Source of the DNA: Alphaproteobacteria bacterium
GTDB taxonomy: Bacteria > Pseudomonadota > Alphaproteobacteria > UBA9219 > RGZA01
Assembly: GCA_033762625.1 (NCBI GenBank)
Contig: JANRLI010000006.1
Span: 1-49,551, forward strand
Reading direction: 5' to 3'
DNA: 49,551 nucleotides
Position 1 is the first letter of the stretch. Every line of letters starts with the position of its first letter. The position numbers and the translations under genes are program-made. Shown here piece by piece: positions 344 through 4,707 of the stretch. The notes beneath the pieces were generated by a model that saw only the letters and a program-made list of their open reading frames with translations, ran no database searches and had not been told where the DNA came from.

Positions 344-1387
344 TCAAGCGTCTGCAGAAGGGCGGCCAGACCGCCCTTTTTTTAATGCCTCATCGTTACG
401 CATAGCTGCTGCCCTTGAAATGATGTGATCTGCGGTATCACATATTTCTGCAAATTCAGTATAAACCGTTTTACCACCCATTGAATGAGGAAGCTTGATA
501 TTGCGCTGCTCCTTGTTTTTTTCATTCCATTCACGCATTGCAGCAATATATTCAGGAATATAATCACCGCGCTTCACAAGATGGAAGAACACTTTTCTAA
601 GCTCAAAGCTGGCAGGATCAAAATAAAGCTTATGTGCCACGGGCTCTATCGCTATTGCAGCCATCTCTTTTGCATGCATTGTGCTGCCCTGATCCAACTG
701 CACTAGCATGTTGATGATAGCGGTTGCATAGATACTTTCGCCAAGCAAGTCATCGGGTTTGATATCCTGCTTACAAAACTCCGCAAATCGTGTTTTGTCA
801 TCCAATCTTGAACACAGTGTTTCGCTTGCATTGCTAAACGCGGATACTTGCGCAGTAGTTCTTTCTAATTTTTTACGAAGGCTCGCAATATTCTTACTGG
901 CCTCATCTAATGTTGAAGATGTAATAGCCTGCATTACCGTAGCAACATCGTCCGCGCTGATGCTGTTTATTTGATCCAACGTAAGTGGTTTTTCTTCATC
1001 CGCAATCATTTCGATTACTTTGGGCATAATAGCTGCAATTTCCGTTTCCTGTAGCCCGAATTTCTCCATATAGCCGTCAAACGCAGCTTTTTCCGATCCG
1101 GATATTTCGGGAATGCCCTCTTCGCCTAAATGAGCCTGGTTTAAAAAATGACGGCTCATAATTTTAATGACTTCAGCCAAAGCACCTCTACGTTCAGGCA
1201 AATGTACTCGGTCAAATTTTGCACGCGATGAATTAACCAGCATGTCGATCGCATCTTGCACGCGATTAAATTCAGGAGAGTTATCTACAAGCCCTTTTCT
1301 TAGCTCTTTTCCGGCATCTATAATCTGCTGATATGATGAAAGCGGCGAAACGCCCAACACCTTATACGGATTAATTGTAGTGTTCAT
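344..1387 (-). CDS. J-domain-like protein lacking HPD (paralogue 1)
   Basis: The protein has 347 residues when started at the ATG at 1387, which follows GGGAG by about 10 nt; a longer frame begins at 1420 but has no better ribosome site. Residues 5-60 read like a J domain (NPYKVLGVSP, a helix, then SRAKFDRVHLP in the position of DnaJ's helix IV), but the HPD tripeptide that stimulates Hsp70 is missing. The rest is helical with no cysteine cluster, zinc finger or membrane segment. It shares a motif with the next gene (V-x-LP-x-R followed by an E-V-x-x-x-x helix; FG-x(3)-EI/EV; DD near residue 150), so the two are paralogues. Its last 12 codons form the terminator of the opposing gene. Function unknown; an Hsp70-independent adaptor or scaffold is a guess. 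Confidence 0.75.
   Translation of the reverse strand: MNTTINPYKVLGVSPLSSYQQIIDAGKELRKGLVDNSPEFNRVQDAIDMLVNSSRAKFDRVHLPERRGALAEVIKIMSRHFLNQAHLGEEGIPEISGSEKAAFDGYMEKFGLQETEIAAIMPKVIEMIADEEKPLTLDQINSISADDVATVMQAITSSTLDEASKNIASLRKKLERTTAQVSAFSNASETLCSRLDDKTRFAEFCKQDIKPDDLLGESIYATAIINMLVQLDQGSTMHAKEMAAIAIEPVAHKLYFDPASFELRKVFFHLVKRGDYIPEYIAAMREWNEKNKEQRNIKLPHSMGGKTVYTEFAEICDTADHIISRAAAMRNDEALKKGRSGRPSADA
359..383 (+). terminator. intrinsic terminator of the first gene
   Basis: AGGGCGG (359-365) pairs with CCGCCCT (371-377) across a 5-nt loop and is followed by a run of seven T's. It terminates the plus-strand gene ending at 341. It lies entirely inside the 3' end of the convergent minus-strand gene and encodes part of that protein's C-terminus. 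Confidence 0.85.
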
Positions 1388-1488
1388 AAAAAATATCTCC
1401 CAGAAACATAACTGGGTCATATACTAACTTATGCAGGTGTAATTGAGGTGACGATTAATACTTGCTGTTAAAGTTAACGGCAAAATTC

Positions 1489-1496
1489 ATGGTTAA
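1489..1496 (-). promoter_or_regulatory. CtrA-like half-site upstream of J-like paralogue 1
   Basis: The minus strand reads TTAACCAT, the strong half of the alphaproteobacterial CtrA box. It lies about 100 bp upstream of the start at 1387. No second TTAA sits at the canonical 7-nt distance, so this is a half-site only. Further TTAA elements occur at 1468-1471 and 1474-1477. Confidence 0.3.
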
Positions 1497-1550
1497 TTAA
1501 AATCTTATTCGTAGTGGGATGTAGCCATTCGCACTAATAATCGCGCGCAA

Positions 1551-2945
1551 TCAATCAATAAAACAAATATCGTTGGGATTGGCTTGCCCAGCATAACGCA
1601 GTTGCGTTGGGCGCTCTGCTACGCGCAAACGGGCGTCTTTGATAATGGCGGCAAGCTTATCATGCAGATCCTGTTGGCTGCTTTTATCGCGGCGTTTATT
1701 GGCTGCATCTAATCCGTTCAGCAGCTCGTGGGAAATCATTCCTTTTTCCAGCATAACATCCAGCAATTCTGTATATTTTACGCCCTTGGGGTCTGCGCCA
1801 GATGGATGATGATAAAGCTTATGTACCAGTCCTTTGATGGCCGCCTGACCCAAATCGGTACGCACCGTGACCACTTCGATTGCCTGCTTGACCAGCATTC
1901 CGCCATCACCTTGTGGTGAATTATCACGGAAACAATAGCGTTCAAATTCATCATAGCTGAACGCATCCGGATTGAGTGTCAACACAACGCTGAATAAATT
2001 GAAGGCCTGCGTTTCTTCGGTTGTTCTGGTCGAATGCGCCAATCCATCAAACACATATTTACTGATGTTGTCCGTAAACACTTTGGTGAATGCCAGCGCC
2101 GGGTTTTGATACAGTGCGGCAGCAATATTGCCCAATACCGCACGGTATTCATGGCGGTAGTTATTGATGCGGTTTTGTGTATGGTTCGCTTTGGCAAGTG
2201 CAATAATCCACTCAGCCTTGAAATGCCCTGCATCCACTTCCGCGAAGTATTTTGCGAGCACATCAACATCTTTGGGATGCTCCAGCATATCGGTAATCAG
2301 CGCCGCCAGCTCGCGGTTCTTGGCATCAACGATTTCGGTATAAAGCATAGGGTGCTTTAAAACCGTTGCCGAAGCCTTTGTACCGCCAGGGTTTTTGGCT
2401 TCTGCGCGGAAGCTTTGTGATGTTGATTTGGCTAAATCCCGTTCCTGCTCACTCAACCGGTTTTTTCTAACTGCATAAATCGCACTTAAAATATCATCCG
2501 GTGTCATGGTGGCCATCACCACCTGCGCATCGGCATGATGTTCTAGCGGGTGTAGGCGCGATAATTCGGTGCTAATCCATTCGACTTCCTGACGGGTAAC
2601 GCCGAATTCAACCGCAATGCGCTTAAAGGTGATTTCCAGTTTGTTGGTAAGCTCACCATCTTTATCAACCGGATACACAGCGCCCAGCCCTACTTCGACC
2701 AGCAACCGCACAACTTCCAGAATGGCTTCGGCGCGCAGCGGTAAATAGACCGCATCATACCCCGCACGGTTTGCTTCGCTGCGCAGAACTTCATAGGCAT
2801 CGGATTTCTGGCGGAATTCGGTGTAGCCTTCAATGGTGCTTAAATCGCGACGTGATTTGGCCAAACGGAATGCATCGTGAATTTCGGTTTGAGAGGCGTA
2901 TGGATGCGTTCCTAGCACCGCATAATATGACCTTTGTTCCGACAT
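1551..2945 (-). CDS. J-domain-like protein lacking HPD (paralogue 2)
   Basis: The protein has 464 residues from the ATG at 2945; a TTG four codons upstream also opens the frame. Residues 5-65 resemble a J domain: SYYAVLGTHPYAS, EIHDAFRLAK, a middle helix, then AYEVLRSEANRAGYDAVYLP. No HPD follows helix II. The next 100 residues align by eye with paralogue 1, and the remaining 260 are an extended helical region with no recognised domain, signal or membrane span. It is encoded in tandem with paralogue 1, separated by about 160 bp, and may have its own promoter. The family is unknown to me. Because it lacks HPD, a standard DnaJ co-chaperone role is unlikely. Confidence 0.8.
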   Translation of the reverse strand: MSEQRSYYAVLGTHPYASQTEIHDAFRLAKSRRDLSTIEGYTEFRQKSDAYEVLRSEANRAGYDAVYLPLRAEAILEVVRLLVEVGLGAVYPVDKDGELTNKLEITFKRIAVEFGVTRQEVEWISTELSRLHPLEHHADAQVVMATMTPDDILSAIYAVRKNRLSEQERDLAKSTSQSFRAEAKNPGGTKASATVLKHPMLYTEIVDAKNRELAALITDMLEHPKDVDVLAKYFAEVDAGHFKAEWIIALAKANHTQNRINNYRHEYRAVLGNIAAALYQNPALAFTKVFTDNISKYVFDGLAHSTRTTEETQAFNLFSVVLTLNPDAFSYDEFERYCFRDNSPQGDGGMLVKQAIEVVTVRTDLGQAAIKGLVHKLYHHPSGADPKGVKYTELLDVMLEKGMISHELLNGLDAANKRRDKSSQQDLHDKLAAIIKDARLRVAERPTQLRYAGQANPNDICFID

Positions 2946-3028: not shown

Positions 3029-3048
3029 GGTTAACGGAACGGTTAACC
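3029..3048. promoter_or_regulatory. GGTTAAC palindrome with CtrA-like half-site
   Basis: GGTTAAC and GTTAACC face each other across 6 nt. On the minus strand the inner arm extends to TTAACCAT (3027-3034), a CtrA half-site; the two TTAA elements are 8 nt apart rather than the canonical 7. It sits about 85 bp upstream of J-like paralogue 2 and overlaps the stop codon of the NAD synthase gene upstream. Confidence 0.35.
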
Positions 3049-4707
3049 GAAGAATTTATTGGTAATCGGATAACGGCGCTCCCGGCCAAAGCTGTGGGCA
3101 GTTATTTTAACGCCCGGCGGCGCTTGGCGACGTTTATACTCAGAAAACTTCAGCATCTTGAGCACTTTGGTTACCGTTGCTTCATCATGTCCGCGGCCAA
3201 TAACATCCTTTATGCCCATTTCCCGTTCCACAAGGCACTGGATAATGTCGTCCAGCTGTGCATATGGCGGCAAGGTATCCTGATCCACCTGATTGGGCTT
3301 TAACTCCGCGCTTGGCGGGCGGGTAATAATGCGTTCCGGCATGACAAAGCCTTGCGGGCCAAGCCCAATTGCTGGCTTATTTACATTGCGCCATTTGCAT
3401 AAACGGAAGACCAGCGTTTTATAGACATCCTTAATTAAAGCAAAACCGCCGCACATATCACCATATAGCGTTGCGTATCCGGTTGCCATTTCGGATTTAT
3501 TGCCGGTTGCCACCACCATGTGGCCATAGGTGTTGGAAAGCGTCATCAATATCAACCCGCGCAAACGCGATTGCACGTTCTGGTCGGCGATGTCGGTGTT
3601 GAACCCTTTGCTATGCGGCTTCACGGCATTGCCGAGCGCTTTCATGCCTTCTTCAATCGAAATGGTTTTATATTCGCAGCCAAGCATGGTGCTGGCCTTT
3701 TGTGCATCTTCCAGACTGTCTTTTGATGTATAGGGTGATGGCATCATCACATTAATAACCTTGTCTTTGCCAAGTGCATCAACAGCCAACGCAGAAACCA
3801 AGGCACTATCAATCCCGCCAGACATACCAATTAGCACACCGGGAAAATTATTTTTTGTAACGTAATCGCGCAACGCAAGCGTAAGCGCGGAATAAATGCT
3901 CTCCTCCTCACCCAGCGGTTTTGTAACTTCTTCCTGACGTGGAACCCAATGTTCACCCTGCTTATGCCAATAGGTGAGCTGCACTTTCTCCTGATATTGG
4001 CCTAGATTAACGCATTCTTCGCCTTTGGTATTCATCACAAATGAACCGCCATCAAATAACAATTCATCCTGCCCGCCGAGCTGGTTCACATACACAATCG
4101 GCAATCCGGTTTCCTTGATGCGCGCAGTCATAATCGCACGACGCACCAGTGGTTTATCTGTTTCAAACGGGCTGGCATTAATCGTGACAAGAATATTTGC
4201 GCCGCGGCGTTTAAGCGATGCGGCGCGTTCCTTGCTCCACATATCTTCGCAGATGGTCACGCCAATACGCGCGCCTTTGATTAGGAATGGCTCGCCATCA
4301 TCCTTACCGCCAAAGCTGAATACACGTTTGTCGTCAAATACGCCGTAGTTGGGTAAATCGTATTTATACCAAACCTGTTCGATCTTGCCGTTCATCAGCA
4401 ACGCAGCAGCATTATACGGGTTACCACCTTCCGAATTTTTCCAAGGAAGGCCGATAATCAACGCGGCGGAATTTTTGGTAACCAGCGCCAGTTCTTCAGC
4501 GGCCTTCATGCACGCATCTACATAAGTCGGGCGCAGCGTCAAATCTTCCGGTGGATAGGCGCTGATGGATAATTCGGACGTCACAATCAAATCAGCGCCC
4601 TGATTGGCCGCGTTTTGATGCACGATTTTGATTTTTTCGGCATTTGCCGCAATCCCCCCGATAGTCAGGTTTAATTGGGCGAGCGCGATGATGAGGGGTT
4701 CTGACAT
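3043..4707 (-). CDS. nadE: glutamine-dependent NAD+ synthase
   Basis: Converts deamido-NAD+ to NAD+ using ATP and glutamine-derived ammonia, the last step of NAD synthesis. The 554 residues match the two-domain form. The N-terminal nitrilase-like glutaminase domain (about 1-265) has the catalytic triad candidates E45, K115 and C153 (ICEDMW). The C-terminal synthetase domain has the PP-loop SGGIDSAL at 296-303. Glutamine can therefore serve as nitrogen donor. No clear Shine-Dalgarno sequence precedes the ATG; the upstream bases are an AT-rich ATATAT stretch. It reads toward the J-like pair but is separated from them by a possible promoter region. Confidence 0.97.
   Translation of the reverse strand: MSEPLIIALAQLNLTIGGIAANAEKIKIVHQNAANQGADLIVTSELSISAYPPEDLTLRPTYVDACMKAAEELALVTKNSAALIIGLPWKNSEGGNPYNAAALLMNGKIEQVWYKYDLPNYGVFDDKRVFSFGGKDDGEPFLIKGARIGVTICEDMWSKERAASLKRRGANILVTINASPFETDKPLVRRAIMTARIKETGLPIVYVNQLGGQDELLFDGGSFVMNTKGEECVNLGQYQEKVQLTYWHKQGEHWVPRQEEVTKPLGEEESIYSALTLALRDYVTKNNFPGVLIGMSGGIDSALVSALAVDALGKDKVINVMMPSPYTSKDSLEDAQKASTMLGCEYKTISIEEGMKALGNAVKPHSKGFNTDIADQNVQSRLRGLILMTLSNTYGHMVVATGNKSEMATGYATLYGDMCGGFALIKDVYKTLVFRLCKWRNVNKPAIGLGPQGFVMPERIITRPPSAELKPNQVDQDTLPPYAQLDDIIQCLVEREMGIKDVIGRGHDEATVTKVLKMLKFSEYKRRQAPPGVKITAHSFGRERRYPITNKFFG

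Follow-up and report, generated by a model that had tools for sequence, protein, structure and literature searches.

Locus and gene models

The window analysed here is the whole 49,551-nt stretch of contig C6 (JANRLI010000006.1) of a 2.23-Mb alphaproteobacterial genome (G000), for which 59 relatives were used in the gene-presence search. At its start, two neighbouring minus-strand genes (gene 1 and gene 2) lie between nadE and a convergent gene encoding a 111-aa protein (Table 1). The original prediction had described them as tandem genes with J-like N-termini, and its reading frames, coordinates and motifs were all borne out: YKVLGVSP and SRAKFDRVHLP in gene 1, YYAVLGTHP and NRAGYDAVYLP in gene 2. 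Gene 2 starts at an ATG at 2945; the best start of gene 1 is an ATG at 1387, with GGGAG nine bases 5' of the ATG (MNTTINPYKVLG).

Table 1. Coordinates of the genes, domains and other features discussed in the text (positions refer to the window unless a contig or locus is given)
Feature	Position	Strand	Basis or remark
111-aa gene	start of window	+	convergent to gene 1; window order: 111-aa gene, gene 1, gene 2, nadE
Gene 1, HPD-less J-like paralogue, 347 aa	344-1387	-	ORF; alignment to gene 2
J-like domain of gene 1, residues 1-60	1208-1387	-	alignment to gene 2
Gene 2, HPD-less J-like protein, 464 aa, all-helical	1551-2945	-	ORF, PF00226 match, ortholog, dN/dS
J-like domain of gene 2, residues 1-66	2748-2945	-	profile alignment, PDB profile matches, model, VIA
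Middle helical region of gene 2, ~residues 67-175, common to gene 1	2421-2747	-	paralogue alignment
C-terminal helical region of gene 2, ~residues 176-464, without known family	1551-2420	-	
nadE, glutamine-dependent NAD synthetase	3043-4707	-	upstream same-strand neighbour, 97 bp before gene 2
Strong hairpin and T-run, 3' of the convergent 111-aa gene	356-381	+	sequence and fold
Hsp70-match loci (DnaK, 883-aa protein)	G000:C12:14680-15771 (L158:2169-4820 +); G000:C19:25005-26789		

The hairpin at 356-381 is read as the terminator of the convergent 111-aa gene. It overlaps the final codons of gene 1 (RSGRPSADA; window 344-381), so that gene 1 appears either to have been attached to that terminator or to have extended into it; directly 3' of the 111-aa gene in the same-genus genome G002, no comparable hairpin was seen. 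A hairpin in the start region of gene 1 was not clearly stronger than in shuffled sequences (z -1.4), and matches to sigma-70-type promoters were fewer than in shuffles and were given no weight. Neither an integrase nor terminal repeats were seen at the locus, and no HPD-bearing J gene adjoins the pair.

Homology to J domains

The gene 2 protein aligned to the DnaJ profile PF00226 from end to end (positions 1-63 of 63; E 5.3e-5), with a score of 23.7 bits against a higher curated cut-off of 27.8. DnaJ was the sole credible family for gene 2 in the Pfam search, and the credible NCBIfam matches were confined to DnaJ/CbpA-type models, all under their cut-offs. A local J-domain profile run over 1,386 ORFs ranked gene 2 and its ortholog (~16-23 bits) directly below the genuine J proteins; unrelated ORFs followed at ~5 bits. 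A family profile of three sequences (gene 1, gene 2 and the gene 2 ortholog; too few for confident mapping of conserved surfaces) was also compared with all PDB chains: J domains ranked first, ~40 of them in all, led by C. elegans dnj-12 (E 9e-7) and E. coli CbpA (E 1.3e-6). The N-terminus (residues 3-66) further matched phrog_14336, a phage protein family of unknown function (E 9e-6), whose profile of 363 positions was unmatched outside the J region, to which the likeness is thus restricted.

Across Pfam, NCBIfam and other profile searches no family exceeded its cut-off for either protein, and PADLOC models matched neither. Partial matches to Beta-lactamase2, Cbp1, TraB/PrgY and similar Pfam/NCBIfam models (E 0.002-0.1, below cut-offs) were set aside as chance. 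The original prediction named, as one result that would speak against a J assignment, a profile match to a characterised family of another kind; none turned up in these searches.

On its own, gene 1 did not reach significance with PF00226 (11.7 bits, E 0.65), and it is assigned to the J-like proteins by way of gene 2, to which it aligns over 191 residues with 24% identity (pairwise E 5e-11). The first 75-80 residues of the pair alone score 16 standard deviations above shuffles, which places the similarity, as measured by alignment, far beyond chance. As had been proposed, the N-terminal likeness continues past the J region into a common middle region; near the C-termini, a weak second similarity around HKLYxxP is at most short. 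Taken together, the profile and pairwise comparisons identify the N-terminal domain of gene 2 as a true J-domain homologue, a class that gene 1 joins only via gene 2.

Loss of the HPD tip

HPD is absent from gene 1, gene 2 and the gene 2 ortholog, in agreement with the original prediction. Relative to canonical J domains of related genomes, gene 2 carries a four-residue deletion that corresponds to the last turn of helix II and the H, and in the profile alignment S-R stands in place of the P-D of HPD; gene 1 has ELRKGLVDNSPEF at the expected position of the HPD loop. Judged from these alignments, what was lost is the tip together with the end of helix II, and not a single residue by substitution. 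Helix II is also lower in net charge (0 and -1 in the two proteins versus +2 in DnaJ). At some of the Hsp70-facing positions of DnaJ a similar residue, basic or aromatic, is kept in gene 2, so that residual binding of Hsp70 by the gene 2 protein is conceivable. HPD is reported to be essential for the stimulation of Hsp70, its loop reaching the key arginine in the nucleotide-binding domain of that chaperone (PMC7289447), and Pam16, which is without HPD, cannot stimulate Hsp70 (PMC12953747). By analogy, and as the original prediction had also held, neither the gene 1 nor the gene 2 protein is expected to stimulate Hsp70.

Predicted structure

An AlphaFold model of gene 2 residues 1-165, built on an alignment of only the three family sequences and of modest confidence (mean pLDDT 66), places helices at residues 7-11, 19-31, 40-57 and 61-86, and so reproduces the J topology of helix I, an antiparallel II/III hairpin and helix IV. 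Foldseek assigned this model a probability of 1.00 for the best J domains, at weak E-values (0.2 and up). By VIA-align, in rows that cover residues 1-66 only, the C. elegans J domain 2och superposed over 63 residues with a Z of 8.6 and an rmsd of 2.2, and nearly all rows listed were J domains; Tim16 (2guz chain B), which has no HPD, was among them with a Z of 7.2. Helical models may reach such Z values by chance, which is unlikely here because the sequence profiles agree. A full-length AlphaFold model was too poor for structure search (mean pLDDT 50.9). The J fold that had been proposed from motifs is thus upheld by sequence profiles, PDB search and predicted structure alike; a prediction showing no J fold did not appear.

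Helix IV is predicted to be continuous over residues 61-86, with the block RxxYDxVxLPxR common to the paralogues. The middle region (~residues 67-165 or 175) continues this helix and is shared by both proteins. Its helical hairpin resembles, by eye, the second half of TerB, a likeness that is weak and not significant. No match to Pfam TerB (PF05099) was obtained in the middle region, and hhalign gave a probability of 13% over 26 columns, with a score of 23 versus 11.2 +/- 2.0 for column shuffles, which never reached it. Against a local TerB profile the region scored 5-6 bits, close to the highest-scoring non-TerB sequences. Kinship of the middle region with TerB stays a lead. The C-terminal parts of both proteins are predicted to be helical, diverge from each other and belong to no known family. 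With hydropathy maxima of 1.1 and 1.7, neither protein has a clear transmembrane helix, and both are best read as soluble and all-helical.

Selection, distribution and a variable site

Between gene 2 and the ortholog found in G002 (88% identity; record JAKFVN010000007.1), dS is ~1.0 and dN/dS 0.06 (0.11 for the J region alone), compared with 0.03-0.04 for nadE and lptD. Purifying selection thus acts on gene 2, which is not decaying, although both orthologs are without HPD. Gene 1 has a lower GC3 than its neighbours (0.39 versus 0.49 for the window). It is not a fresh tandem copy, since its identity to gene 2 is 24% and that between the gene 2 orthologs is 88%; from these values, either the duplication predates the divergence of the two genomes, or gene 1 was acquired independently or has changed very rapidly.

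Members of the family are extremely scarce, known so far from one genus and patchily present in it. Gene 2 occurs in one of the two other genomes of the genus (G002) and is absent from the third (G001), and gene 1 had no counterpart among the 59 relatives, which leaves it in the window genome only. Searched across the order (33 genomes), the whole family profile recovered no further member; its matches spanned only the J region (~residues 1-72), most of them in frames about as long as DnaJ- or CbpA-type proteins. The non-J part matched only the two known genomes among 385 genomes of the class and only the window genome among 398 of the phylum, and no relatives of the pair were found in viral contigs, phages or plasmids. 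A profile search across Alphaproteobacteria, suggested in the original prediction as a test of conservation and co-occurrence, thus returned a pair that is not conserved; with one ortholog for gene 2 and none for gene 1, there is no readable co-occurrence signal.

The site between nadE and the 111-aa gene is variable. In G001 the two flanking genes are 88 bp apart with neither gene 1 nor gene 2 between them, in G002 gene 2 stands there alone, and in G003, from another genus of the same taxonomic family, the site (L043:4328-6020) holds a PAS/methyl-accepting-type sensor gene that is apparently split into two frames. The G001 gap contains a near-perfect inverted repeat, CCAGTGACAGTTACTTTTT...AAAAAGTAACTGTCACTGG (L036:1440-1490), possibly a terminator or what remains of a small mobile element.

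Other J and Hsp70 proteins of the genome and order

Elsewhere in the genome, an HscB homologue (L083/L134, G000:C3:259140-259772, plus strand) exceeds the TIGR00714 cut-off of 46.75 with 51.7 bits. It has a CxxC...CxxC zinc ribbon at its N-terminus and, in the window genome, lies directly behind a cysteine desulfurase gene. The H of HPD was absent from this homologue in 19 of the 19 genomes of the order in which it was found (including L135-L152); NPE, NAE, NVE, APE, AAE, DPQ, DPE, SPD and others stand in its place, and two of the 19 keep PD. HscB without the H of HPD across an order may be a more general observation than the pair itself. Long Hsp70 matches in the window genome were limited to DnaK and an 883-aa protein that matches profile positions 2-377. 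The search showed no clear HscA, which would fit an HscB without HPD. A further protein of ~360 aa (L081, G000:C22:22671-22817, minus strand) has a C-terminal J domain in which HPD is kept and an N-terminal region to which no family was assigned here; its gene adjoins receptor-like and response-regulator genes.

Comparison with known systems

The family resembles canonical DnaJ/CbpA (PF00226) in the order and length of its helices, the Y-Y-x-x-L-G start, the end-to-end profile match, the F and A-Y-x-x-L of helix III and the R-A-x-Y-D of helix IV. It differs in having no HPD, an end of helix II shorter by four residues, no G/F region and neither zinc nor substrate-binding beta domains, and in the long helical region that follows the J domain. 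With Pam16/Tim16 and other eukaryotic J-like proteins it shares a J fold without HPD, from which direct stimulation of Hsp70 is not expected; in contrast to Pam16/Tim16, it is soluble and bacterial, has no adjoining HPD-bearing J gene and carries an unrelated C-terminal region, and the likeness is one without demonstrated sequence orthology. DjlA-type TerB-J proteins likewise join a J domain to a helical region, comparable with the TerB-like hairpin seen by eye in the middle region, but their domain order is the reverse, and those of related genomes keep HPD, which the family has lost; the missing Pfam TerB match and the low hhalign probability also set the family apart.

Proposed function

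Our preferred reading, held with slightly more than even confidence, is that gene 1 and gene 2 belong to a lineage-restricted J-like family in which the J fold is an interaction or structural module and not a direct activator of Hsp70. With the tip that engages Hsp70 gone, the N-terminal domain would not trigger ATP hydrolysis by DnaK; it would act as a structural and docking module, its fourth helix running into the conserved helical middle region, with the divergent C-terminal helical region presented to a partner. Because the C-termini are divergent, the two proteins probably have different partners.

The main rival reading, which we consider unlikely, is Pam16-like regulation of a canonical J/Hsp70 pair, in which the HPD-less J domain would pair with a canonical J protein (DnaJ, a CbpA-like protein or another) or occupy the J site of DnaK, and would dampen or position Hsp70 activity. 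Pam16 offers a precedent, since its J-like domain without HPD forms a dimer with a J protein and blocks the stimulation exerted by that protein (PMC12953747); the gene 2 model aligns to Tim16, and the window genome encodes five HPD-bearing J proteins as possible partners. However, the pair lacks a membrane anchor, does not adjoin an HPD-bearing J gene and gives no co-occurrence signal, helix II is without the positive net charge of DnaJ, and ordinary J domains score at least as well in the loose structural comparison as the one that has no HPD.

It is also doubtful, as a primary description, that the genes are accessory cargo of a variable site, gained and lost rapidly, with helical C-termini in a niche role (e.g. 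stress or defence) and an incidental J fold; such a niche role is compatible with both the docking-module and the Pam16-like readings. The changing occupancy of the site (empty in G001, gene 2 in G002, both genes in the window genome, a sensor gene in G003) and the low GC3 of gene 1 are consistent with cargo, but loss in G001 accounts for the same pattern, and the lack of a PADLOC match, of relatives in phage, plasmid or viral collections and of an integrase or terminal repeats at the locus argues against it. We regard as distinctly improbable the further proposal that the HPD-less pair is the bacterial equivalent of Pam16, a regulator dedicated to and coupled with Hsp70, and that, together with the loss of HPD from HscB in the same lineage, it points to a broader rewiring of how J proteins are used in the order. 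That these are decaying J proteins, which lost HPD on the way to becoming pseudogenes, would fit the loss of the key motif and the absence of gene 1 from both sister genomes, but is very unlikely given that both frames are open, and is largely refuted for gene 2 by its dN/dS of 0.06 over a dS of ~1.

Significance

HPD-less J-like proteins are already known as a kind and have been described mainly from eukaryotes (Pam16, plant J-like proteins); a literature search found such eukaryotic precedents and no bacterial family like the gene 1/gene 2 pair. Gene 1 and gene 2 represent a new, unclassified bacterial family of this kind, from one genus so far, a rarity that limits the weight of the family. 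A bacterial family that keeps a selected J fold without the Hsp70 trigger would show that, in bacteria too, the fold has been reused as a plain interaction module.
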